Source: Cellvibrionaceae bacterium
Lineage (GTDB): Bacteria > Pseudomonadota > Gammaproteobacteria > Pseudomonadales > Cellvibrionaceae
Length of the DNA stretch: 43,506 bases
Direction of reading: 5' to 3'
NCBI GenBank assembly: GCA_025800435.1
Contig: JAOXRV010000653.1
Location: 1 to 43,506, forward strand
Shown: piece by piece, positions 144 to 13,416 of the stretch
How positions within the stretch are numbered: the stretch's first letter is position 1
How the letters are laid out: each line of letters opens with the position of its first letter
Translations under genes and position numbers: made by a program
Notes under the pieces: generated by a model
What the model was told of the DNA's origin: nothing
What the model saw: the letters and a program-made list of their open reading frames with translations, nothing else
Databases searched by the model: none

Positions 144-1784
144 ATGCCCCTAGCAAACCTTCGCCCCAAGCTCGCCCTGTGTGCCCTTGCACTGGCCCTT
201 AGCTCTAGCCCTGCCGCCGCTGAACAATATTGGGTTTATAGTATGGTGGATGGGGATAACCTCTGGGATTTTAGTGCCAAGCACCTGGATAAGGTGACCC
301 GCTTTGAGCAGCTGCGCCGTATTAACAATATTCAAAGCCCCACTCAGTTGCGCCCCGGCGCCCTGATTCGGGTGCCTATGTCGTGGGTAACTTCCAACTT
401 GGTGCCGGCACGCATCCACGCCATTAAGGGCGCAGCTGAGCTGGAGCGGGCCAGTGGTGGCGAGCGTGAAGTGGTGACGGCCGCTACCGAGATTCGCCTG
501 GGTGATACCCTGCGCACTGGCGCCAACAGCAGTATTGCGGTGCGCTTTGCGGATAAGTCGGTGGTCACTATTAATGAAGACTCGGTGATTCGCTTTGATC
601 ACCTAAGTGCCCACGGCAGTACCGGTATGGTCGACTCGCGCATTAAATTATTAAAGGGCCGCCTAAGCTCTACGGTTACCCCAGCCAAGGGCCCGGGTTC
701 GCGTTTTGAAATCCACACCCCCTCCGCCATCAGTGCGGTGCGCGGTACTGCCTACCGGGCGGTGGTGGCCGAGGGCGAGGTCTCCAATATTGAAGTGGTG
801 GAGGGCAAAGTTGCCGTGGCCGGTGGCAAGGCCCAAGAGTTGGTGCCGTCGGGTTTTGGCACCCAAGTAAAAGCCGGCGCGGCGCCCACCAAGCCCAAGC
901 CTTTATTGCCCGCGCCCCAGCTGGTAGCACCGAGTAAGGCCATTCGCAAAATTAGCGAGCGTTTAAGCTGGCCAGCTGTTGCCGGTGCAAAAGCCTATCG
1001 CGGGCGCATTAGCGAGGGTGCTGATTTTACTACCGTACTGTGGCAAAAAGTGAGCGAGCAGCCAAAGTTGGCGCTGCCAGATTTACCCGATGGCGATTAT
1101 TTTTTGCGCCTGCGGGCTATTGATTCAATTGGGCTGGAAGGATTAGAGCAACAAGTGCGCTTTAGTTTGGATGCGCGCCCCCAGCCGCCGATGCCCATGC
1201 AGCCCCAAGATGACGCCTTGCTACGCGGCGATGGCCCCCAGTTAAAGTGGACAGCCTCGGCCGATGCGGAGCGTTACCAATTAGAGGTTGCCAGCGATGC
1301 ACAGTTTAAACAGTTGTTGGCAAACGAGACCTTGGCGGCAACTGAGTTTGATACCGCGAGCCTGCCCAAGTTTGGAAAATTTTACTGGCGCCTGAGCAGT
1401 ATCGCCGCCGATGGCGAGGTGGGCCCGCTGGGGGCAGTGCGGCAGTACGAGGTAAAACCCCTGCCGCCAATTCCCGAAGCTTCCGTAAGCACCGGCGACG
1501 ATGGCAAATATGTGTTGAGCTGGCCCCAGACTGGCGAGGGCGAGCGCTATCGGGTGCAATTGGCGGTGGATAAAAACTTTAAAGAGTTAGTCCTTAACGA
1601 GGTGATCGACGAAAATAGATTCGCCATGCAGCCCTATACGGCCGCCGGCCGTTATCTGCGGGTGCAAACCATCGAGGCGGATGGCTTTGAAGGTGCTTGG
1701 GGCGCCAGCCAATATATTGAGCCACTACCCGATCAGCGCCCCTGGTATTTTATTGTGGGCATGATTTTAATTGGCTTGCTGTAA
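144..1784 (+). CDS. Secreted LysM/FecR-domain protein with Ig-like repeats
   Basis: This 546-residue protein is probably exported to the periplasm or cell envelope. The first ~26 residues form a signal peptide ending in SPAAA. Residues ~28-80 resemble a LysM module (a DGDNLWDFSAK segment, then a LRPGALIRVP segment), which in this family binds peptidoglycan. Residues ~95-230 match a FecR domain (RFADKSVVTINEDSVIRFD, then a SAVRGTAYR segment). The rest holds about three fibronectin/Ig-like repeats built around a W-P...A..Y pattern, and the C-terminus is hydrophobic (WYFIVGMILIGLL), possibly a membrane anchor. AGGA six bases before the ATG supports the start. The next gene, a CHASE2 c-di-GMP protein, begins 12 bases after the stop. 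FecR/CHASE2 pairs recur in proteobacteria, so the protein may pass an envelope signal to it; that role is inferred. Confidence 0.85.
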   Translation: MPLANLRPKLALCALALALSSSPAAAEQYWVYSMVDGDNLWDFSAKHLDKVTRFEQLRRINNIQSPTQLRPGALIRVPMSWVTSNLVPARIHAIKGAAELERASGGEREVVTAATEIRLGDTLRTGANSSIAVRFADKSVVTINEDSVIRFDHLSAHGSTGMVDSRIKLLKGRLSSTVTPAKGPGSRFEIHTPSAISAVRGTAYRAVVAEGEVSNIEVVEGKVAVAGGKAQELVPSGFGTQVKAGAAPTKPKPLLPAPQLVAPSKAIRKISERLSWPAVAGAKAYRGRISEGADFTTVLWQKVSEQPKLALPDLPDGDYFLRLRAIDSIGLEGLEQQVRFSLDARPQPPMPMQPQDDALLRGDGPQLKWTASADAERYQLEVASDAQFKQLLANETLAATEFDTASLPKFGKFYWRLSSIAADGEVGPLGAVRQYEVKPLPPIPEASVSTGDDGKYVLSWPQTGEGERYRVQLAVDKNFKELVLNEVIDENRFAMQPYTAAGRYLRVQTIEADGFEGAWGASQYIEPLPDQRPWYFIVGMILIGLL

Positions 1785-1796
1785 GCGGCCAAACAT

Positions 1797-4277
1797 ATGT
1801 GGCGGCATTTAACGGCAAAAGATTTCGCAGTAGTGCTGGCCCTCATGGGCTTGTTATTGGCTTTGCTCAGCGCCTTACAATACAGTGGTGTAAGCGCGCG
1901 CTTTGAAAAGCTAAGCTACGATTTATTGCTGCCCTTACAGGCCCCCAAAATGTCCGACGATATTGTAATTATCGATATCGACGATCGCAGTATTAATGAA
2001 CTGGGGCGCTGGCCCTGGTCGCGGCAGTTACACGCTCAATTACTCGATACCATTAGCCCTGCCGCCCCAAAAGCCATTGGGGTGGATTTTATTTTTTCCG
2101 AGCCCCAAAACCCAGAGGCCGATCGCGCTTTGGCTCGTGCTATTGAAAATAACGGTGATACTTTTTTAATTGCCGCCCCGGTCATGCCCGAGGCCAATAG
2201 CTTGATGGCGGAGTTGTTGCCGCTGCCGGATTTTGCAGCAGTGGCCGCTGGTATTGGCCATGTGGAAGTAGAGCTGGATATTGACGGAGTTAACCGCAAA
2301 CTGCATGTATACGGTGGTATTGGCGATGGCCGCTGGCCCTCGCTGGCCTTGGCCATGTTGCAGCACGGTGGTGATTTAAATTCAAACTTAACTGCCTTGC
2401 AGAGCAGGGCCCAAAGCGAAGAGCTTTCCACTGCATGGTTGCGCAATGGCCGCGGTTTAACCCCGTTTAGCCGCGCCGATGATCAAGCCAAACGAGTATC
2501 CTATGTGGATATTATTCGCGGCCGCGCCAACATTAAACAGCTAAAAGATAAATATGTGTTGCTGGGTGTGACCGCTACCGGTGTGGGCGATCGGATTGCC
2601 ACACCCTTATATCGCAGCCACGAACGCATGCCGGGAGTGGAGCTGCTGGCCCAGCAATTAAATGGTTTATTGCAAAACCGTATTTTGCAAACACTGCCTC
2701 AATACGCTCAGTGGCTGCTGTCGATGCTGTTGTTAGGCACTGTGGTACTGGCGATTGTGTTAAGCCCAGTTCGCTACGGTATTTGGCTGCCCTTTATTGC
2801 CGGCGCTTTTGTGTATCTGGTCTCGGCATTGTTATTAGTATTTGGGCGCTTGTGGTTTGAACCGGCGGCAACGGTTTTTTGTTTGCTGTTGGCCTGGCCG
2901 CTGTGGGCTCTGTGGCGCATTCAGACCGGGGCCATGGCTCAGCAAGAATTACAGCGGCAGCTCGAAAGCTTAAGCAGTTTTAACCCGCTGACGGGCCTGC
3001 CTAATCAAAAGGGTCTAGAGCGGGAGATCAATCGTCGCGTCGGGCAAAAAGAGTCGCCGGCGCTGGCATTGCTAATTTGTCATTTTAACTGGTCTGGCTC
3101 CACCAGCAGCCTCTACGATAAATCGGCCCTTAAGGCTATTGCAGAGCGCCTGGGCCAAATAGGCTGTGATAAATTATTTTTGGCCCACCTCAGCGGTGAT
3201 GAGTTTGCACTGTTGTTAAACGAGCGCAATATCAGCGAGGCCCGAGAATTGTCCGAGCGGGTGTTGGCCAGTTTCAATCGGCCCCTGGCCCATGGCCGGG
3301 ATAATTTGTTGCTGAGCCCTGTGATCGGTATCAGCCGCTGGCCCGAAGATGGCGGCCAGGCCGATGAAATGCTGCGCTATGCAGCCACCGCCCTGTTTAA
3401 AGCTCGCCTGGATGATAAAGCGGCCTTTTGTTTTTACAGCGAATCGGTGGGTCAGGAGGTGGATGCTCGCTATCAATTAGAGCAGGCCCTGGTGCATGCA
3501 ATTGAGCGGGTGGAATTTGAGTTGCACTTTCAGCCTCAGGTGGATGTGCGCAGCAATGGCATTGTCGGGGCCGAGGCGCTGTTGCGTTGGAATAATCCCA
3601 AGCTGGGGTTAATCAGCCCCGATAGTTTTATTCCGGTGGCGGAATACTCGCGCATGATCGGCGCGATTGGCGATTGGGTGTTAAAGAAGGCCTGTTTTGA
3701 ACTCAAGCGTCTGCGGGCACTGGGCTTTACCGATTTTCGCATGGGGGTAAATATTTCGCCCCAGCAATTTAGTTCGCCCAATTTTTGCAGCCGGGTAAAA
3801 TTAATTGTACAAGAGTTGGGCCTGCCGCCCTCGGCGCTATTGTTTGAGGTAACCGAAAAAACGCTGATGCACGACTTGGTGTTGGCACAGCGGGTAATGG
3901 GCCAGCTCAATGATTTTGGTATTGAGTTTGCCATCGATGATTTCGGCACTGGCTACTCCTCCTTGAGCCATCTGCAAAAGCTACCCTATCAATGCCTTAA
4001 AATCGATCAGTCCTTTGTGTTTGAGCTGGGCCAGAGCGCTGGCGCCCAAGAGCTGACCACCAGTATTATCGATATGGCCGCGCGCCTAAGTCTCGATGTT
4101 ATTGCCGAAGGCATTGAAGAGCCGGAACAAGAGCAAATTCTGGTAAAAATGGGCTGTCACAATATGCAAGGCTTTTTATACAGCCAGGCGCTACCCATTG
4201 ATGCATTGATCGAGCTGCTTAAGCAGCGAGAGCTGGGGCTGGCGCCTCAGCCCGAGGCAGCGCAAGAATCCGCCTAG
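1797..4277 (+). CDS. CHASE2-GGDEF-EAL membrane protein, probable c-di-GMP phosphodiesterase
   Basis: The 826 residues read as an N-terminal membrane helix (~10-28), a periplasmic CHASE2 sensor (~35-300, with IVIIDIDDRSINELGRWPW), about three membrane helices (~305-375), a GGDEF domain (~395-555) and an EAL domain (~570-810). The EAL domain keeps its signature: EALLRW at ~593, EVTEKTLM, and the metal-binding DDFGTGYSSL at ~714. Phosphodiesterase activity (c-di-GMP to pGpG) is therefore likely. The GGDEF domain is degenerate: the active-site loop reads SGDEF (~466-470), and the upstream D-x-D-x-F-K region reads CHFNW (~428-432), removing a metal-binding acidic residue. It may serve as a regulatory or GTP-binding module instead of a cyclase. 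It is translationally close to the FecR protein upstream, which may supply the signal. Confidence 0.9.
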   Translation: MWRHLTAKDFAVVLALMGLLLALLSALQYSGVSARFEKLSYDLLLPLQAPKMSDDIVIIDIDDRSINELGRWPWSRQLHAQLLDTISPAAPKAIGVDFIFSEPQNPEADRALARAIENNGDTFLIAAPVMPEANSLMAELLPLPDFAAVAAGIGHVEVELDIDGVNRKLHVYGGIGDGRWPSLALAMLQHGGDLNSNLTALQSRAQSEELSTAWLRNGRGLTPFSRADDQAKRVSYVDIIRGRANIKQLKDKYVLLGVTATGVGDRIATPLYRSHERMPGVELLAQQLNGLLQNRILQTLPQYAQWLLSMLLLGTVVLAIVLSPVRYGIWLPFIAGAFVYLVSALLLVFGRLWFEPAATVFCLLLAWPLWALWRIQTGAMAQQELQRQLESLSSFNPLTGLPNQKGLEREINRRVGQKESPALALLICHFNWSGSTSSLYDKSALKAIAERLGQIGCDKLFLAHLSGDEFALLLNERNISEARELSERVLASFNRPLAHGRDNLLLSPVIGISRWPEDGGQADEMLRYAATALFKARLDDKAAFCFYSESVGQEVDARYQLEQALVHAIERVEFELHFQPQVDVRSNGIVGAEALLRWNNPKLGLISPDSFIPVAEYSRMIGAIGDWVLKKACFELKRLRALGFTDFRMGVNISPQQFSSPNFCSRVKLIVQELGLPPSALLFEVTEKTLMHDLVLAQRVMGQLNDFGIEFAIDDFGTGYSSLSHLQKLPYQCLKIDQSFVFELGQSAGAQELTTSIIDMAARLSLDVIAEGIEEPEQEQILVKMGCHNMQGFLYSQALPIDALIELLKQRELGLAPQPEAAQESA

Positions 4278-4349
4278 CAACCATAGCAAGGCAATAAGTG
4301 GCGTAATAGTGGGCTTGGCCTGTGCAGGCTTGCACATAAGTGCCCTAAT

Positions 4350-4370
4350 CCCCACGCTTACTGGGGCTTT
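4350..4370 (+). terminator. Possible weak terminator after the CHASE2-GGDEF-EAL gene
   Basis: A CCCCA/TGGGG stem with a seven-base loop is followed by CTTT and, a few bases later, TTTT. The stem is only five base pairs, so the call is tentative. Confidence 0.3.
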
Positions 4371-4397
4371 CGAGTTTTATCTTAGCCCTGTTGGGGC

Positions 4398-4403
4398 TAT
4401 AAT
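4398..4403 (+). promoter_or_regulatory. Consensus -10 box (TATAAT) upstream of cytochrome c5
   Basis: A perfect TATAAT lies about 80 bases before the cytochrome start. The region where a -35 would fall (TTTTAT) is a poor match, so this may depend on an activator. It directly follows a small AGCCC/GGGCT inverted repeat. Confidence 0.45.
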
Positions 4404-4483
4404 GCGGGCGCTTTGTTGCGCGTGTTCGGGGTTCTAAATCCCACCAGCGCAGCCAGCCCAGAGCAACCTGAGAGGAATAAACC

Positions 4484-4921
4484 GTGAGTCACGCCAAAAA
4501 AGTAATTAGCCTAGTTTCTGCAGCCGCCCTGGCCGCTGCTGTTTCCGCTGTAGTATGGGCGGGTGAAGCCGACGACACCGTTAAGGCCCGAATCGCCCCA
4601 GTGGGCGAAGTGTGCATGGCCGGCGATGACTGCGCCGGAGCCCAGGCCGCTGCCCCCGCCGCTGCCGCCAGTGGCCCCCGCGCCGGTGCCGATATCTATA
4701 ACAGCGCCTGTATGGCCTGCCACACCACCGGTGCTTCCGGTGCCCCCAAAATTGGCGATGCCGCCGCTTGGGGCCCCCGTGTGGCCAAGGGTATGGATGT
4801 ACTCTACAACAGCGCCATCAACGGCTTAAATGCAGTAATGCCTGCCAAGGGCATGTGCATGGATTGTTCAGACGATGAGCTGAAAGCCACCGTTGACTAC
4901 ATGGTCGAAAACAGCAAGTAA
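4484..4921 (+). CDS. Cytochrome c5 family monohaem protein
   Basis: This is a periplasmic electron carrier of 145 residues with a signal peptide ending near VVWAGEA. The haem-binding CMACH motif is at residues 76-80, and the probable axial methionine is M119 in AVMPAKG. The CMDC pair at 125-128 is typical of cytochrome c5, where it forms a disulfide. The start codon is GTG, chosen because GAGGAATAA provides a ribosome site just upstream and the signal peptide begins there. An Ala/Pro-rich linker (~51-66) separates the haem domain from a short N-terminal segment with two further cysteines (C44, C50), which is not typical of the family. The gene is single and ends with a good terminator. The redox partner cannot be told from the sequence. 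Confidence 0.9.
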   Translation: MSHAKKVISLVSAAALAAAVSAVVWAGEADDTVKARIAPVGEVCMAGDDCAGAQAAAPAAAASGPRAGADIYNSACMACHTTGASGAPKIGDAAAWGPRVAKGMDVLYNSAINGLNAVMPAKGMCMDCSDDELKATVDYMVENSK

Positions 4922-4962
4922 TGTAGTCATTTTTGCTGAGTAAGTTCCTTTGGGAATATGAT

Positions 4963-4989
4963 AAAAAAGCCGCTATATGCGGCTTTTTT
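4963..4989 (+). terminator. Rho-independent terminator after cytochrome c5
   Basis: A GCCGC stem, TATAT loop and GCGGC stem are flanked by six A and six T. The flanking A/T extends the stem, and it works in both directions. Confidence 0.9.
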
Positions 4990-5038
4990 ATTGCCTGACA
5001 ATTACTTAGCTGCCCAATCTAGTTTTTACTTTAAGCTA

Positions 5039-5302
5039 GGGCACCTCCGAATAACTCGGCGATGCTCAGCGGGACCCTAAAGCGTACAGCTGCAAGGCGT
5101 GCTGCGCAGTGAATGCCGGCCGCCTTTACAAGCAGCGCAACGCCGCAGATGTGCGCTTTAGGGCCCGCCCTGCGGGGCCTTGAGGCAAACGCCCTAGCGG
5201 TGTTGCTCACTCTCGACGTGCGCCCAGCATGCCTTCGAGCGAGCGCCTTGCTAGGGCGTTTGCCTCGAGGCCTGAGCGTCACCGAGTTATTCGGAGGTGC
5301 CC
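5039..5302. mobile_element. TA-flanked palindromic MITE-like element, long form (264 bp)
   Basis: The ends are inverted repeats of 31 bases (5039-5069 and 5272-5302, 29/31 identical) starting GGGCACCTCCGAATAACTCGG, less one base. TA dinucleotides lie directly outside both ends (5037-5038, 5303-5304), as expected for IS630/Tc1-mariner-type insertion. Inside are two nested inverted repeats. One is imperfect (5071-5107 with 5132-5166, around ACCCTAAAGCG). The other is nearly perfect (5176-5198 with 5250-5272, 22/23, around GGCAAACGCCCTAGC). There is no transposase, so this would be a non-autonomous element. It shares its first ~70 bases with the 94-bp element at 26521. Confidence 0.75.
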
Positions 5303-5304
5303 TA

Positions 5305-5681
5305 GATAAATCAATAGTTTAGCGATTGATTCCTAGGGTTTATTAAGTCCGCCCTGGTTAGAACAATTCGATTAGTTACGACCGGCCATTTGTCGCCCAA
5401 AACCATGCAAAAGGGTGATTAAATGCGTATGCTTGTTCCCAGACCTTGGGCTCCACCGAGGCCTTTGATGGGTCAAACCACCAGTGCATGGTAACTCCAA
5501 GTTTGGCGGCTTGCGTCGCTCGGCAGAACGGTTGCGCTGTCTTTTTTAAGATTCTAGGTTGGTGATTTGGCTTGTTAAGGCCGTGGGGCTCAGGGCCACC
5601 ATCTTTTTTATCTACTGCGCGCAGCGCGTCGGCCAATGGGGTCATAGAACAATCTTGGATGATTGTTCTATGACAGTAGGT
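5305..5681. other. Intergenic stretch between the palindromic element and rep
   Basis: No recognisable gene is present. A minus-strand frame of 89 codons (5376-5645) is open, but it has no clear ribosome site, starts inside a hairpin, and its product resembles nothing I know. It could be an eroded gene. The right end carries the perfect hairpin listed separately. Confidence 0.5.
5641..5674 (-). terminator. Perfect 14-bp hairpin just downstream of rep
   Basis: GTCATAGAACAATC is followed by a six-base loop and its exact reverse complement, 7 bases past the rep stop codon. There is no T-tract, so it could be a transcript-stabilising or Rho-dependent end, or the scar of an insertion, and not necessarily an intrinsic terminator. 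Confidence 0.45.
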
Positions 5682-7715
5682 TTAAAGATCGGCCAGTAGG
5701 CTGTCCAAGGTCATGCGCCCTTTGTTTTGATTGCGCACCGGGCAATGTTCGTCGAAGTTTTCCATTTCCAGCTCATCCTCAGGTAGCTCTTCTAAAAACC
5801 GCGAGCTGCTGGTGTCGATAATCTCACCGTATTGTTTACGCTTGGCCGCCATGGTGATGGTCAGTGTGCGCTGGGCGCGGGTGATGCCCACATAGCACAG
5901 GCGCCGCTCTTCTTCGACATTGTCCTCTTCGATACTCGTGCGGTGGGGCAGAATATCTTCTTCAAAGCCAAGCATAAACACATGGGGAAACTCCAGCCCC
6001 TTGGAGGCGTGCAGGGTCATCATTTGCACCTGATCAAACTCTTCCTCTTCCTCGTGGCGTTCGAGCATATCGCGCAGTATTAATTTGGCGATCGCCGCTT
6101 CCAGGCCGATGTCCTGTTCCTGCGCATCGTCTTCGCTTAGTTGGCGCTCCAGTAGATTGCGAATGGAGTCGATCAGGTACCAGACATTTTCCATGCGTTT
6201 CTCGGCTACCTTGGGGCTGCTGGCGTTTTGAACCAGCCAGCCTTCGTAGTCGATATCGCTAATCATCTCGCGCAGGGCATTGATGGGGTCGGCGCTTTCA
6301 CACTGCTGGCCAATATGCAGCAGCCACTCCCGAAAGCGGGTCAAGCGTGACAGGGTTTGTTTGGGTATCTCCCGGCTCAGGGCCAGCTCGCCACTGGCGG
6401 CAAATAAGCTGAGTTGGCGCTCGCTGGCGTAGCGGCCCAAAGCTTCTAGGGTACTGGTGCCAATCTGCCGGCGCGGGGTGTTCACCACGCGTAAAAAAGC
6501 GTTGTCGTCGTCGGGGTTAACCAGCAGCTTTAGGTAAGCCATGATGTCTTTGATTTCGGTGCGCGAGAAAAACGAGGTGCCGCCGGATATGCTATAGGGC
6601 ACCTGGGCCTGCTGCAGTTTAATTTCCATCAGTCGGGCCTGGTGATTGCCCCGGTATAAAATGGCAAAGTCTTTAAAGCTAATTTGCCGCTGTAGACGCT
6701 GGGTAATAATCTCATTGGCGACCCGCTCAGCTTCGGCTTCTTCATTGCCACAGCGCAAAATGCGAATTGGCTCGCCGTAAGATTTATCGCTCCACAGGGC
6801 CTTGTCAAACTCGTGCGGGTTGTGGGCAATTAAGTGGTTGGCGGTTTTCAAAATACGTTGGGTAGATCGGTAGTTTTGCTCCAGTTTAATCAAATGTAGA
6901 TTGGGGTAATCCTGCTTTAGCATGCCCATGTTTTCTGGGCGTGCACCGCGCCAGGCGTAAATAGACTGATCGTCATCGCCCACCACCGTCAACGCACCGC
7001 GATCGCCCACCAGTTGTTTTACCAATAAATACTGGCTGGAGTTGGTGTCTTGATACTCATCCACTAATAAGTAGCGAATTTTACGCTGCCAATTTTGTAA
7101 AATATCCGCGTGGGTGTGAAACAGTTGCACCGGTATTAAAATTAAATCGTCAAAATCAACGGCATTATAAGCTTTTAAGGCCTGGGTGTAGCGCTCGTAC
7201 ACATAGGCAATAAATTCTTCGCCCTTGCTCTGGGCGCGACTCTTGGCGTGGGCCGGGGTGACCAGATCGTTCTTCCAATTGGAAATCTGGCTTTGCACCA
7301 TGGCCAGGTGGTCACTGTCGATATCGTTTTCTTTGAGCATCAGCTCTTTCAGTAAAGCGGTAGAGTCCTCCGCATCAAAAATCGAAAAGCCCGGCTTATA
7401 GCCCAGGGTTTTACTTTCTTTGCGAATAATATTTAAACCCAGATTATGAAAGGTAGAGACGGTCAGGCCGCGTCCGGCGCCTTTGGGTAGCAGGCCACTG
7501 ACACGTTCTTTCATCTCGCGCGCGGCCTTATTGGTAAAGGTCAGGGCGGCGATATTGCGGGCGGCCAGGCCGCACTCTTCGATCAGGTAGGCGATCTTGC
7601 GGGTGATTACACTGGTTTTGCCGCTACCGGCCCCGGCCAATACTAGGGTGGGGCCGTCGATATAGAGGACAGCCTCGCGCTGGCGGGGGTTTAGGTGTTG
7701 AATCAGGGCAGACAC
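5682..7715 (-). CDS. rep: ATP-dependent DNA helicase Rep (UvrD/Rep superfamily 1)
   Basis: A 677-residue 3'-to-5' helicase close in length to E. coli Rep (673). It shows Walker A GAGSGKTSVIT (~30), motif Ia ALTFTNKAAREMKERV, motif II VDEYQDTN, motif III VGDDDQSIYAWRGA, motif IV EQNYRS, motif V TLHASKGLEF and motif VI CYVGITRAQRTL. The N-terminal STFHNLGLNIIRKE and the subdomain arrangement favour Rep over UvrD. In E. coli Rep clears protein roadblocks ahead of the replication fork with DnaB. The start, MSALIQHLNPRQREAVLYI, places the Q-motif at the normal distance. comM lies upstream on the same strand, 58 bases away. Confidence 0.95.
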   Translation of the reverse strand: MSALIQHLNPRQREAVLYIDGPTLVLAGAGSGKTSVITRKIAYLIEECGLAARNIAALTFTNKAAREMKERVSGLLPKGAGRGLTVSTFHNLGLNIIRKESKTLGYKPGFSIFDAEDSTALLKELMLKENDIDSDHLAMVQSQISNWKNDLVTPAHAKSRAQSKGEEFIAYVYERYTQALKAYNAVDFDDLILIPVQLFHTHADILQNWQRKIRYLLVDEYQDTNSSQYLLVKQLVGDRGALTVVGDDDQSIYAWRGARPENMGMLKQDYPNLHLIKLEQNYRSTQRILKTANHLIAHNPHEFDKALWSDKSYGEPIRILRCGNEEAEAERVANEIITQRLQRQISFKDFAILYRGNHQARLMEIKLQQAQVPYSISGGTSFFSRTEIKDIMAYLKLLVNPDDDNAFLRVVNTPRRQIGTSTLEALGRYASERQLSLFAASGELALSREIPKQTLSRLTRFREWLLHIGQQCESADPINALREMISDIDYEGWLVQNASSPKVAEKRMENVWYLIDSIRNLLERQLSEDDAQEQDIGLEAAIAKLILRDMLERHEEEEEFDQVQMMTLHASKGLEFPHVFMLGFEEDILPHRTSIEEDNVEEERRLCYVGITRAQRTLTITMAAKRKQYGEIIDTSSSRFLEELPEDELEMENFDEHCPVRNQNKGRMTLDSLLADL

Positions 7716-7773: not shown

Positions 7774-9270
7774 CTATAACTCCAACTCCCGATCTAAACC
7801 CCTAAAGCTCAGCGCCTCGGCAATATGGGCCGGTTCTACCAGGGCTTGGTCGTCCAGGTCGGCAATGGTGCGGGCCAGTTTTAGAATGCGGTGGTAGGCC
7901 CGGGTGGAGAAGTGCAGCTGGGCCATGGCCCGGCGCAATTGTTTAAGGGCGGCGCCACTGGCCAGGGGCTCCAGCTCTTGGTTGCGCAGTTGGGCGTTGA
8001 GCTTGCCCTGGCGCTTAAGCTGCAGGGCTTGGGCCACGAGTACTCGGGCCCTGACCTGCTCGCTGTTTTCACCCTTTGCTGTGGTAGCCAGTTCTGCTGG
8101 GGGCAAGGCTTGTACCGGCACCTGTAGGTCGATTCTATCCAGCAGTGGCCCGGAGATCTTTTGTCGATAGCGCTGTACCTGGGCCGGGCTGCAGCGGCAC
8201 TCGCGCTTGTTGCTGCCGGCGTAGCCACAGGGGCAGGGGTTCATGGCTGCAATTAATTGAAACTGGGCCGGGAACTGGGCCCGTGCCTTGGCCCGGGCAA
8301 TACTGATCTCGCCGTTTTCCAATGGCTCGCGCAGGGCCTCCAAAACACTGCGGGGAAACTCCGGCAGCTCATCCAAAAACAAAACGCCGCGGTGGGCCAG
8401 GCTGATCTCGCCGGGTTGGGGGTTGCTGCCGCCACCGACCAGGGCAATGCTAGAGGCTGAGTGGTGGGGGCTGCGAAAGGGCCGCTGGCCCCATTGGCGG
8501 GTGTCGAAAGGTTTATTACAGGAGTGAATTTTGGCCACCTCGATGGCCTCGTCGGTATCCAGAGGGCCCAGCAGGCTGGGTAGGCGCTGGGCCAGCATGG
8601 TTTTGCCGGTACCCGGCTCGCCGTAAAAAATTAGGTTGTGGTTGGCGGCGGCGCTTATTTCCAGCGCGCGCTTGGCCTGGTTTTGGCCGCGCACCTCGGC
8701 TAGGTCAAGCGTATTGGCCGGGGCGAGCAGGGGATGCTGTTCGGCGCGGCTCAGGGGGGTATTACCATTTAGGTGGGCGCAAACCTGGAGCAAATTGGCG
8801 GCCGGCAGGACGCGACAGCGGTTGCTTAGAGCCGCCTCGGCGGCACTGGCCTGGGGCAGGATCAGTTGGCGCTGGGCCAGGCCACAGCTGAGTGCTGCGC
8901 CCAGGCTGGCGGGTATCGCCCGCAGCTCGCCGGAAAGTGCAAGCTCGCCGAGAAATTCGTAGTCTGCCAGGGCGCTGTTGGGCACCTGGCCCGAGGCCGC
9001 CAAGATACCCAGGGCAATGGCCAGGTCAAAGCGGCCGCCATCTTTAGGCAGGTCGGCCGGGGCCAAGTTAATGGTGATACGACGGGGCGGGAACTCAAAG
9101 TGGCTATTGAGGATGGCGCTGCGCACCCGGTCTTTGGCTTCTTTAACGGCGGTTTCAGCCAGGCCAACAATGGTCAGCCGCGGCAGGCCGCCGGAGATAT
9201 GGGTTTCCACGGTAACCAGGGGCGCATCAATACCCAGGCGGGCACGGCTGTAGGCAATCGCCAGGGACAT
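7774..9270 (-). CDS. comM: ComM/YifB family Mg-chelatase-like AAA+ ATPase
   Basis: This 498-residue protein starts MSLAIAYSRARLGIDAPLV, as ComM/YifB proteins do. It has an N-terminal ChlI-like domain (~1-165), a Mg-chelatase AAA+ domain with Walker A GEPGTGKTML (~220) and Walker B VLFLDELPEF, a four-Cys stretch (CPCGYAGSNKRECRC) that may bind zinc, and a C-terminal lid domain. In Vibrio, ComM is a hexameric branch-migration helicase that promotes integration of transforming DNA. Many non-competent bacteria also carry it, so its presence does not prove competence. GAGAGGATT precedes the ATG. It lies between ubiK and rep on the same strand. Confidence 0.93.
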   Translation of the reverse strand: MSLAIAYSRARLGIDAPLVTVETHISGGLPRLTIVGLAETAVKEAKDRVRSAILNSHFEFPPRRITINLAPADLPKDGGRFDLAIALGILAASGQVPNSALADYEFLGELALSGELRAIPASLGAALSCGLAQRQLILPQASAAEAALSNRCRVLPAANLLQVCAHLNGNTPLSRAEQHPLLAPANTLDLAEVRGQNQAKRALEISAAANHNLIFYGEPGTGKTMLAQRLPSLLGPLDTDEAIEVAKIHSCNKPFDTRQWGQRPFRSPHHSASSIALVGGGSNPQPGEISLAHRGVLFLDELPEFPRSVLEALREPLENGEISIARAKARAQFPAQFQLIAAMNPCPCGYAGSNKRECRCSPAQVQRYRQKISGPLLDRIDLQVPVQALPPAELATTAKGENSEQVRARVLVAQALQLKRQGKLNAQLRNQELEPLASGAALKQLRRAMAQLHFSTRAYHRILKLARTIADLDDQALVEPAHIAEALSFRGLDRELEL

Positions 9271-9349
9271 CGCACAATCCTCTCAGACAGAGGCGGTGAG
9301 TCTAGCAAGCTGGCAACTGGCCCTGTATCGGGCAAAAGGGTTGGGCGCG

Positions 9350-9592
9350 CTAGGGCTGGCTGAGCTGGTCGAGCTGGGCCTGTAGCTCGGCCAGTTGCTT
9401 TTCCATTGCTTCAATTTTGCTGCGGCTGCGCTGTAGCACAATGGCCTGGGTATCAAATTCTTCACGGCTGACAAGATTGAGACGCTTAACCGCCGCTTGA
9501 ATCATCTGTTGCAGGTGGTCTTTGGGGGTGGGGCCGCTCTCGATTGCTGTGTGGATATCACTGGCGAGTTTTTGGGCGAAATCTTGCAGCAT
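9350..9592 (-). CDS. ubiK: UbiK (YqiC/BMFP) ubiquinone biosynthesis accessory factor
   Basis: An 80-residue, mostly helical protein starting MLQDFAQKLASDIHTAIESG. It has the BMFP pattern: an amphipathic N-terminal helix, an AVKRLNLVSREEFDTQ core, and a coiled coil (residues ~50-78, EAMEKQLAELQAQLDQL). In E. coli UbiK binds UbiJ and helps the hydroxylation steps of aerobic ubiquinone synthesis. The frame stays open a further 58 codons upstream, but that part (many K, N and R, no family similarity) overlaps the regulatory region of the divergent operon. The internal ATG was chosen because the family begins there. ubiH and ubiI lie elsewhere in this window. Confidence 0.9.
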   Translation of the reverse strand: MLQDFAQKLASDIHTAIESGPTPKDHLQQMIQAAVKRLNLVSREEFDTQAIVLQRSRSKIEAMEKQLAELQAQLDQLSQP

Positions 9593-9685
9593 GTTGTTGG
9601 GCCTTTGTATCAGTATTTTCGGTGCAGCAATTGTAATAGATTCAACAAAAAGAACCAGACTGCACCAATTCAAGGCTTTTTTTCT

Positions 9686-9702
9686 TGCACTATTGTGGCG
9701 CA
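9686..9702. promoter_or_regulatory. Candidate NtrC enhancer site 1
   Basis: TGCACTATTGTGGCGCA matches the 17-bp NtrC palindrome (TGCACYA-N3-TGGTGCA) at all fixed positions but one, and resembles a known NtrC site upstream of E. coli glnA. It sits ~160 bases before the start predicted from the sigma-54 promoter. Confidence 0.6.
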
Positions 9703-9713
9703 CTGTCGAATTC

Positions 9714-9752
9714 CTGCCTTTTCGTGCACAGATTTTGTGCACGAAAAGGCAG
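9714..9752. promoter_or_regulatory. Perfect 17-bp palindrome containing candidate NtrC site 2
   Basis: Arms 9714-9730 and 9736-9752 are exact reverse complements with a five-base centre. The core 9725-9741 (TGCAC-N7-GTGCA) has the GCAC-N7-GTGC skeleton of NtrC sites, centred 39 bases from site 1, close to four helical turns. The unusually long arms could also mean a second regulator or an RNA hairpin. Confidence 0.55.
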
Positions 9753-9826
9753 AGATTATAAGTCAATTTAGCGCTATAGCGCCTAAATGGCGGTTAATTG
9801 ACTGAAAAACCACCAAAAACAAAAGT

Positions 9827-9842
9827 TGGCCCGCTCTGTGCT
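9827..9842 (+). promoter_or_regulatory. Candidate sigma-54 (-24/-12) promoter
   Basis: TGGCCCGCTCTGTGCT fits TGGCACG-N4-TTGCW, with the invariant GG and GC correctly spaced and two mismatches at less conserved positions. Transcription would start near 9853, ~75 bases before the torF-like gene. The gene content (P-II and ammonium transporter) is typical of RpoN/NtrC control. Confidence 0.65.
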
Positions 9843-9926
9843 ATGTCCAGTGTAGGTGTTCACGTCAGGGCGTTTCTTTAAGATTGAGCCCAATAAAATT
9901 AAAAATGAAATGTTTGGAGACTAACA

Positions 9927-10640
9927 ATGAAAAAATTAATTAACTTTGCATCGATAGCAGCTCTGAGTTTTGCCGCCGCCCAGGCCGGCGCAGTCGAAAT
10001 CAGCGGCAATGTCGCCCTGACTACCGACTATAAATTCCGCGGTATTTCCCAAACCGATAATGACCCGGCTATTCAAGGCGGTTTTGATGTCGCCTTTGAC
10101 GGTGGCTTTTACGTGGGCACCTGGGCTTCTAATGTCGATTTTGCCGGCAGCCTAGAGCTGGATTACTACGCCGGCTTTGCCACCGATATCAGCGAAGGCG
10201 TGGGTATTGATGTGGGCGTTCTTTACTACGACTACCCCGGTACCGAAGGTGATGATGACTATGTTGAACTCTACGGTAGCGTTTCCTTCTCCGGCGCCAC
10301 CGTGGGCCTGAACTATTCGGATGATTACTACAATGAGACGGGAGAGTTCTTCTATCTCTATGGTGGCTATGAGTTTAGCTTGCCCGAAGACTTCAGCTTG
10401 GCGATTCACTACGGTTACAACGATTTAGATCGCAATGATGCCAATGCCAAACCCGGTGAAAATGTCTTCCTGACCAACAATGCAGACTCCTATGCGGATT
10501 ACAACATCACTATCAGCAAATCAGTGGCCGGGGTTGACCTGAGCCTGGGTTACTACGATACCGACCTCAGCACGGCTGAGTGTTCTGGTGAGAGCTGGTG
10601 TGACGGTTCGGTTATTTTTACGATAGCCAAATCTTTGTAA
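9927..10640 (+). CDS. TorF-family outer-membrane beta-barrel protein
   Basis: This 237-residue protein has a signal peptide cleaved near AQAGA-VEISG. The mature part alternates polar and aromatic residues in strand-length segments, with the family's opening NVALTTDYKFRGISQTDNDPAIQGG, here in shortened form, and ends in a beta strand (GSVIFTIAKSL). These features match the TIGR02001/TorF putative porin family. Acidic loops (EGDDDY, YSDDYYNETGE) should lie on one face. The gene is the first of the cluster with P-II and amtB, downstream of the predicted sigma-54 promoter, suggesting it helps nitrogen compounds cross the outer membrane when nitrogen is short. Its substrate is unknown. Confidence 0.85.
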   Translation: MKKLINFASIAALSFAAAQAGAVEISGNVALTTDYKFRGISQTDNDPAIQGGFDVAFDGGFYVGTWASNVDFAGSLELDYYAGFATDISEGVGIDVGVLYYDYPGTEGDDDYVELYGSVSFSGATVGLNYSDDYYNETGEFFYLYGGYEFSLPEDFSLAIHYGYNDLDRNDANAKPGENVFLTNNADSYADYNITISKSVAGVDLSLGYYDTDLSTAECSGESWCDGSVIFTIAKSL

Positions 10641-10647
10641 ATGTTAG

Positions 10648-11019
<372 letters not shown>

Positions 11020-11097
11020 GCCTTAAACCCTTAATTAGCAAAGATCATTTTTAGCGGCCGACGGCCGCGATGGGATTCTTTTGTCTGGAGAAAATTG

Positions 11098-12348
11098 ATG
11101 GAAGCACAAGTTACGGAGTTAGCGTACGCCTTAGATACGTTTTACTTTCTTGTCTGTGGTGCCCTAGTTATGTGGATGGCAGCGGGTTTTGCCATGCTCG
11201 AAGCTGGCCTGGTACGGGCCAAAAACACCACTGAAATTTTAACCAAAAATGTCGCGCTGTTTGCGATTGCCTGCACTATGTACATGCTAATGGGTTACAC
11301 CATTATGTATGGTACAGCCGATTGGCTGTTGTCCGGAATAACGGGGGATGGTTTTACCGGAGCCGCCGAGCCCGCGAGCTATGCTCCGTCGGCGGATTTT
11401 TTCTTTCAGGTTGTGTTTGTGGCAACCGCTATGTCGATTGTCTCTGGTGCAGTGGCTGAGCGCATGAAACTGTGGGCCTTTTTGATCTTCGCGGTGTTTA
11501 TGACCGGCGTGATCTATCCCTTAGAAGGTTCTTGGACTTGGGGCGGCAAAGACGTCTTTGGTCTGTATAACCTGGGTGATCTGGGCTTCTCTGACTTTGC
11601 CGGTTCGGGCATTGTGCATATGGCTGGTGCAGCGGCTGCGCTGGCGGGTGTATTGGTACTGGGCCCCCGTAAAGGTAAGTATGGCCCCGGTAATATGATT
11701 ACCCCCATTCCCGGTTGTAACCTGCCACTGGCTACTTTGGGTACTTTTATCCTGTGGTTGGGCTGGTTCGGCTTTAACGGCGGCTCGGTACTGGCTACCG
11801 CCAGTGTAGAGAGCGCCAACAGTGTTGCGGTGGTATTTATGAACACCAACGCCGCCGCTGCCGGTGGTTTGATTGGCGCTCTGTTAGTGGCTCGCCTCAA
11901 GTTTGGCAAGGCCGATCTGACCATGGCCCTCAACGGTGCCCTGGCTGGCTTGGTTGCCATTACCGCTGAGCCTTCTACACCTACCCCACTGGTCGCAACC
12001 CTGTTTGGTATGGCTGGCGGTGTACTGGTTGTGTTTAGTATCCTGACCCTGGATCGCCTGAAAATTGATGATCCCGTTGGTGCTATCTCAGTACACGGTG
12101 TGGTTGGTCTGCTGGGCCTGCTGCTGGTGCCTCTGACCAACCCGCTGACTGAGGATGGCGGTGCCAGCTTTAGCGGCCAGATTATCGGTGCCCTGACCAT
12201 CTTTGGCTGGGTATTTTTGGCCAGCCTGGTGGTGTGGGTACTTATCGATAAGCTGCTGGGTGTGCGTATCAGCGAAGAAGAAGAATACGAAGGCGTGGAC
12301 CTGGTGGAATGTGGTATCGAGTCCTACCCTGAGTTCACCGTTAAATAG
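11098..12348 (+). CDS. amtB: Ammonium transporter AmtB
   Basis: A 416-residue inner-membrane ammonium channel with about eleven helices. The signature is visible: the twin-histidine motif in GIVHMAGAAAAL (pore His 1, preceded by the conserved Asp in DFAGSG) and ISVHGVVGLLG (pore His 2), AERMKLWAF, and FGFNGGSV. I start at ATG 11098, seven bases after GGAG; an in-frame TTG lies directly before it. Unlike E. coli AmtB the sequence has no obvious N-terminal signal peptide, beginning at the first membrane helix region (TFYFLVCGALVMWMAAGFAM). The C-terminal tail (RISEEEEYEGVDLVECG) contains the conserved GlnK-contact region. The gene is flanked by P-II genes on both sides. Confidence 0.95.
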   Translation: MEAQVTELAYALDTFYFLVCGALVMWMAAGFAMLEAGLVRAKNTTEILTKNVALFAIACTMYMLMGYTIMYGTADWLLSGITGDGFTGAAEPASYAPSADFFFQVVFVATAMSIVSGAVAERMKLWAFLIFAVFMTGVIYPLEGSWTWGGKDVFGLYNLGDLGFSDFAGSGIVHMAGAAAALAGVLVLGPRKGKYGPGNMITPIPGCNLPLATLGTFILWLGWFGFNGGSVLATASVESANSVAVVFMNTNAAAAGGLIGALLVARLKFGKADLTMALNGALAGLVAITAEPSTPTPLVATLFGMAGGVLVVFSILTLDRLKIDDPVGAISVHGVVGLLGLLLVPLTNPLTEDGGASFSGQIIGALTIFGWVFLASLVVWVLIDKLLGVRISEEEEYEGVDLVECGIESYPEFTVK

Positions 12349-12355
12349 CCCCACT

Positions 12356-12380
12356 GGGCGGCCCCAGGGTCGCCCTTGTT
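12356..12380 (+). terminator. Possible weak hairpin between amtB and the second P-II gene
   Basis: GGGCG and CGCCC arms enclose ten bases and are followed by TTGTT. The stem is short and the T-run interrupted; it may only partly attenuate the transcript. Confidence 0.3.
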
Positions 12381-12458
12381 ACAAGAGGTTGAGGGTGAGG
12401 GTGATTTTTAGCCCTATATTGTGTATCTTTGTCGCCTTAACGCGTTACCCAACTATAG

Positions 12459-12806
<348 letters not shown>

Positions 12807-12839: not shown

Positions 12840-13143
12840 GATCTTTCTGTTTGTTTTTCTGTTTGATTTCCCGTTCGAAAATCTCCCAAATATCCGCCTA
12901 TATTAAACGCTTGTTCCGCCTAGTTTTGCCTCGGCAAACAGTTGCCTGTGGGTACTGTTTTTATACTTGCCTAATTAATCAGTTCTCGGTCTTTCGTGTC
13001 ATTCGCGCCTAAACTGCCACCAAATTACGCAAATAGAAATTTAGGCGAAATAATTTTTTAAAAAATAAACTGGCCGCCATTGCAGTGCCTAACAGTTGGG
13101 CTATACCTAAACGGTAGGGTGCTTTCTTAGGGTGTTTTACACA
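12840..13143. other. Intergenic region upstream of the sutA-like gene
   Basis: No gene is seen. The stretch is AT-rich. It contains a spaced inverted repeat, CGCCTAAA at 13006-13013 and TTTAGGCG at 13040-13047, which may be a regulator site, followed by a plausible sigma-70 promoter listed separately. Confidence 0.5.
13080..13107 (+). promoter_or_regulatory. Candidate sigma-70 promoter for the sutA-like gene
   Basis: TTGCAG and TATACC are separated by 16 bases, 36 bases before the chosen ATG. The match to consensus is moderate. Confidence 0.4.
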
Positions 13144-13416
13144 ATGGCAACAGTGAAAGATCAAAATAAAATCAGTAACAAAGAAAAACTATTAAGCGAA
13201 GAAAAAACAACAGTGCAAACGGGACTTGAGTCACTGGCAAAACTAGATAAGGAGAATGCCTTTAGCCCCAACTGCCGAGCCGAGCTGCGCGATGAATTAG
13301 AGCGCCAGGTGGAACAATTTTTACAACAGGGTGGTGAGATCAAAAAGATTGAGCCCAATGTCATGGCCGACCCGCCCAAAAAACCGACGAGTAATTACGG
13401 CTCGCGGCCAATTTAA
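13144..13416 (+). CDS. sutA: SutA-like RNA polymerase-associated small protein
   Basis: A 90-residue, highly charged protein with a lysine/glutamate-rich, probably disordered N-terminus (TVKDQNKISNKEKLL), a helical middle (RAELRDELERQVEQFLQQGG) and a conserved C-terminus (IEPNVMADPPKKP, then YGSRPI). That tail closely resembles Pseudomonas aeruginosa SutA, which binds the RNA polymerase beta subunit and promotes transcription during slow growth. I chose the ATG at 13144 because AGGGTG lies upstream; a GTG four codons earlier is possible. The gene is alone and converges on the HAD gene, whose stop is 13 bases away. Function here is inferred from that similarity. Confidence 0.75.
   Translation: MATVKDQNKISNKEKLLSEEKTTVQTGLESLAKLDKENAFSPNCRAELRDELERQVEQFLQQGGEIKKIEPNVMADPPKKPTSNYGSRPI

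Follow-up and report, generated by a model that had tools for sequence, protein, structure and literature searches.

The region from 9661 to 9842 on the forward strand of the analysed DNA (the window, 43,506 nucleotides) very probably controls an NtrC-activated, sigma-54-dependent torF-glnK-amtB operon in which TorF would act as a nitrogen-scavenging channel. NtrC/sigma-54 control of glnK-amtB is textbook knowledge, both genes being classic targets of NtrC. The part worth following is the conserved porin, which takes the place of the leading cistron and, judged from sequence comparisons, apparently is an NtrC target in its own right.

The first gene of the cluster (9927 to 10640, forward strand) encodes a torF-like putative outer-membrane porin of the Gcw_chp family. 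The protein is above both family cut-offs, i.e., 203 bits vs. 47 for TIGR02001 (E 4.5e-60) and 132 bits vs. 24 for PF09694. On the same strand follow glnK, which codes for a P-II protein (10681 to 11019), a gene for an amtB-type ammonium transporter (11098 to 12348; above cut-off for TIGR03644/TIGR00836) and, as fourth gene of the conserved cluster, a second P-II gene (12468 to 12806) which probably also belongs to the operon. The divergent neighbor is ubiK (BMFP; 9350 to 9592, reverse strand). The structure predicted for TorF with 39 relatives is a 12-strand barrel (pLDDT 91.6), and an outer-membrane location of this β-barrel is predicted. The closest solved folds by rmsd are the KdgM/NanC-type monomeric porins, also with 12 strands (KdgM 4fqe, TM 0.73 by target length, rmsd 3.8; NanC 2wjq, 0.65). 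At 8–10% identity this is a likeness of fold class only, from which a substrate is not inferable.

The sigma-54 promoter is predicted at 9826 to 9842 (forward strand), where inspection of the sequence reveals the -24/-12 element TTGGCCCGCTCTGTGCT. GG at 9828–9829 and GC at 9840–9841 are ten bases apart and form the invariant GG-N10-GC in the context of TGGCAC-N5-TTGCW. The two mismatches to this consensus, already counted in the initial annotation, both lie outside the invariant pairs. Transcription is predicted to start at about 9853, which leaves a 74-nt leader upstream of the torF ATG at 9927. Taken alone the pattern is at chance level, one match vs. 0.71 expected in 43.5 kb. Within the 9 kb that surround the operon the coding strand has no other match exceeding 11.5 bits, and the window scan found no separate element above this score ahead of glnK, amtB or the second P-II gene. 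Scanning 9500 to 9960 for sigma-70 promoters and terminators yielded none.

Upstream of the promoter three NtrC-like boxes are located, all on the forward strand. The middle box TGCACTATTGTGGCGCA (9686 to 9702; centre 9694, about -159) has one mismatch. The proximal box TGCACAGATTTTGTGCA (9725 to 9741; centre 9733, about -120) possesses a perfect TGCAC-N7-GTGCA core. These correspond to the two sites which had initially been read from the sequence, a 17-bp site with one mismatch and a second with a GCAC-N7-GTGC core, with centres about 39 bases apart and some 110–160 bases upstream of the predicted start. Absent from that first list was a distal, half-conserved box, TGCACCAATTCAAGGCT (9661 to 9677; centre about -184), which is weak and reaches 6.8 bits on its own. 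Two centres and a weak third fall into the range of about 80–200 bp upstream of the start, where an NtrC-activated operon is expected to have at least two boxes. The boxes agree with the E. coli NtrC consensus TGCACCANNNTGGTGCA which, like the RpoN consensus, is given in PMC8743547. Individually they are expected by chance: the pattern of the middle box has one match vs. 0.70 expected in 43.5 kb, the core pattern of the proximal box three vs. 2.3. Because each motif is singly at chance level, the case rests on arrangement and conservation. The joint sigma-54/NtrC arrangement scores 29.9 vs. 25.0 for the 99.9th percentile of shuffled upstream regions.

Conservation was first of all evaluated within the genus, i.e., in the window and four other species. 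The synteny is the same in all five, with comM-ubiK divergent from torF-glnK-amtB-P-II-sutA. Ahead of the porin gene no conserved stretch is longer than the -24/-12 block, and AAAAGTTGGCCCGC-N2-TGTGC is identical throughout. All five species have the three NtrC-like boxes, always exactly 25 and 39 bp apart, the middle box being weak in one congener (L015); the DNA between the boxes has diverged, the spacing is kept. In all four congeners the distal box attains 10.6–10.9 bits at the same 25-bp distance, and their best box, 14.6–17.8 bits, is at the place homologous to the proximal box of the window. The array of the window is situated 10–12 bp further upstream than that of the congeners, a shift which would correspond to about one helical turn. 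According to the initial annotation, a lack of conservation in relatives would speak against its proposal; the sites are conserved in all four congeners.

The comparison was extended to 108 torF loci from relatives in the whole order. The DNA ahead of each gene was scored for an NtrC box that precedes a -24/-12 element by 40–250 bp. The matrices followed the published consensus, and the threshold lay at the 99th percentile of the scores from 4,320 dinucleotide shuffles (1% false positives). The arrangement passes in 45 of 54 torF loci linked to glnK and/or amtB vs. 15 of 54 unlinked ones (Fisher p 8e-9), with the reservation that locus counts overstate independent events because the compared genomes are related. 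The passing linked loci are spread over 13 family-level groups of the TorF protein tree. Nine linked loci remain below threshold; in four of these (L019, L034, L039, L147) the -24/-12 element has at least 13 bits and only a good NtrC box is missing.

Could the sites, in evolutionary terms, serve glnK-amtB only, with torF as a passenger between promoter and glnK and devoid of a nitrogen role? torF is missing from many genomes of the order, and glnK-amtB without torF is the classic arrangement, as in E. coli (PMC8743547). Yet torF is the first gene in all of the 13 groups mentioned above, and the unlinked loci also argue against a passenger. In three of the 15 unlinked passers (L038, L114, L120) the sequence ends soon after torF, and these may be linked after all; the remaining 12 have neither glnK nor amtB downstream of torF and keep the sigma-54/NtrC promoter nevertheless. 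Several passers are nested in linked clades (L020/L022 by L021; L112, L115 and L120 with L028; L134, L038 and L040 with L037), which suggests that torF took its nitrogen promoter along when it moved. Conversely, torF paralogues without glnK/amtB exist which are without the sites (L156, L023, L035, L073). A mere passenger is, thus, unlikely. Most simply, nitrogen would control the porin itself, and the porin gene would have retained its promoter after leaving the operon. The initial view that the outer-membrane porin would come under the same control is supported by the sites kept in linked and in several stand-alone torF loci.

Two individual cases are worth recording. L156 (contig C5 of the relative G002) is an extra torF, 67% identical, lacking glnK/amtB as well as sigma-54/NtrC sites. 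L127 and L129, which belong to a divergent clade, are torF genes standing alone; they have good sigma-54/NtrC pairs and adjoin a convergent patatin-like gene (GGGARAAYQVGALRG and GTSAG motifs).

The proximal box lies within a perfect 39-bp palindrome (9714 to 9752) with 17-bp arms at 9714–9730 and 9736–9752 and a 5-nt centre, a point absent from the first reading. The palindrome itself might be the functional element, e.g., as an RNA hairpin, a terminator or a binding site for a different regulator, and would then contain the NtrC core by coincidence. Its hairpin is very stable (z -8.3), and it runs 11 bp beyond the NtrC box on each side, compared with at most 3 bp for the best boxes of 60 torF loci. 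This interpretation is nonetheless very unlikely. The palindrome is positioned upstream of the predicted start and has no T run, it occurs once in the genome and not in the congeners, and the latter have an ordinary NtrC box at its place with the same spacing. A dispersed repeat, which was also considered, was rejected on account of the single copy. The palindrome is more likely an ancestral NtrC box that was enlarged by template switch in this species only, because the right arm is similar to the sequence of the congeners and the left arm is the mirror image of the right.

The genome encodes the required regulators. NtrC is at C30:62878-64251 (762 bits, cut-off 558.6), and RpoN scores 505.7 bits (cut-off 277). 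glnA is present, too, with a -24/-12 element of its own, CTGGCACACTATTTGCG, which two NtrC boxes precede by 87 and 100 bp; on contig C865 a comparable but weaker pair accompanies a glutamine-synthetase-like gene. Places matching the NtrC box number 21 in the genome vs. 2 for a reversed control pattern. Together with the conserved sites and the 45 linked loci, the ntrC and rpoN genes and the glnA promoter support the NtrC-sigma-54 control of the torF-like/glnK/amtB cluster which the initial annotation had predicted. That the -24/-12 element is real, yet mainly another sigma-54 activator acts on boxes which merely resemble those of NtrC, is very unlikely: the genome does encode several other NtrC-like activators, and L034, L039, L147 and L136 combine a good -24/-12 element with weak NtrC boxes, but the boxes fit the E. 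coli NtrC consensus, the glnA upstream region of the same genome has the same kind of pair, and GlnK and AmtB are classic targets of NtrC (PMC8743547). As a separate observation, a second amtB/P-II cluster of the same genome (L154, contig C865, about 1774–5691) adjoins the glutamine-synthetase-like gene with its own -24/-12 element and NtrC-like boxes.

The preferred reading, NtrC-activated transcription of a porin-first operon, entails the following sequence of events. Upon nitrogen limitation NtrC would be phosphorylated and would bind to all three boxes, with centres at about -184, -159 and -120. Its ATPase would then remodel the RpoN holoenzyme on the -24/-12 element. The transcript would begin near the predicted start with the porin as first cistron, and the downstream genes would be co-transcribed. 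TorF would provide the outer-membrane channel in an uptake route for scavenging nitrogen, its substrate being a matter of inference. With a nitrogen switch ahead of a porin-first operon, ammonium uptake is probably stepped up in the outer and the inner membrane at the same time.

The spacer between torF and glnK contains a GC hairpin, GCCGGC-TGCG-GCCGGC (10649 to 10664, forward strand), with a 6-bp stem, followed by ATTTTT, a short T run. In a single window such matches occur at chance frequency. Among the relatives, a stem length of 8 bp is reached or exceeded in 25 of 49 torF-glnK spacers vs. 2.4% of shuffles, and in only one of 47 glnK-amtB spacers of the same loci. The spacer hairpins are GC-rich and differ in sequence from relative to relative (L012, L013, L086, L098, L106 and others). 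A search for known RNA families in 9270 to 12500 returned only a snoRNA match far below the gathering score. Intercistronic hairpins are known to stabilise a message or to terminate transcription in part. By analogy, the hairpin after the porin cistron would do one or the other and would probably raise the amount of porin above that of GlnK and AmtB. The recurrent torF-glnK hairpin appears to be a new feature.

In E. coli glnK-amtB is among the targets of RpoN and NtrC, and a -24/-12 element with upstream NtrC boxes drives both genes (PMC8743547). The present operon is alike in this respect. It differs in that a porin comes first, three boxes are spaced by 25 and 39 bp, amtB is followed by another P-II gene, and a hairpin lies between porin and glnK. 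The TorF family is named after the porin torF (SO4694) of the Shewanella TMAO-reductase system, which is annotated to TMAO respiration (PMC5955497). In contrast, torF of the window resides among ammonium-uptake genes behind a nitrogen-type promoter, and nothing in this comparison favours a TMAO role for the glnK-linked TorF clade. A literature search, with subscription journals outside its reach, found no paper linking TorF to glnK/amtB, nothing on the TIGR02001/Gcw_chp/TorF family putative porin beyond an unrelated proteomics mention, and no description of a Gcw_chp/TorF porin in the conserved position of leading cistron and, apparently, as an NtrC target by itself.

The passage of ammonium across the outer membrane is usually assumed to proceed via general porins. 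We tentatively propose, as a possibility that we hold to be less likely than not, that the glnK-linked TorF clade forms a channel in the outer membrane dedicated to ammonium or small amines, that NtrC targets it directly in the whole order, and that the conserved hairpin raises its expression above that of GlnK-AmtB. If true, this clade would be a hitherto unrecognised outer-membrane half of ammonium uptake. A porin which is first in an ammonium-uptake operon order-wide and which apparently keeps its nitrogen promoter when moved provides the family with a testable physiological role.

Finally, two observations concern the distal end of the cluster. The second P-II protein is 98% identical to its counterpart in congeners, the first 90–91%. 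Directly downstream of the ammonium cluster is sutA, coding for an RNA polymerase-binding factor (13132 to 13416), and this neighborhood is kept in the genus.
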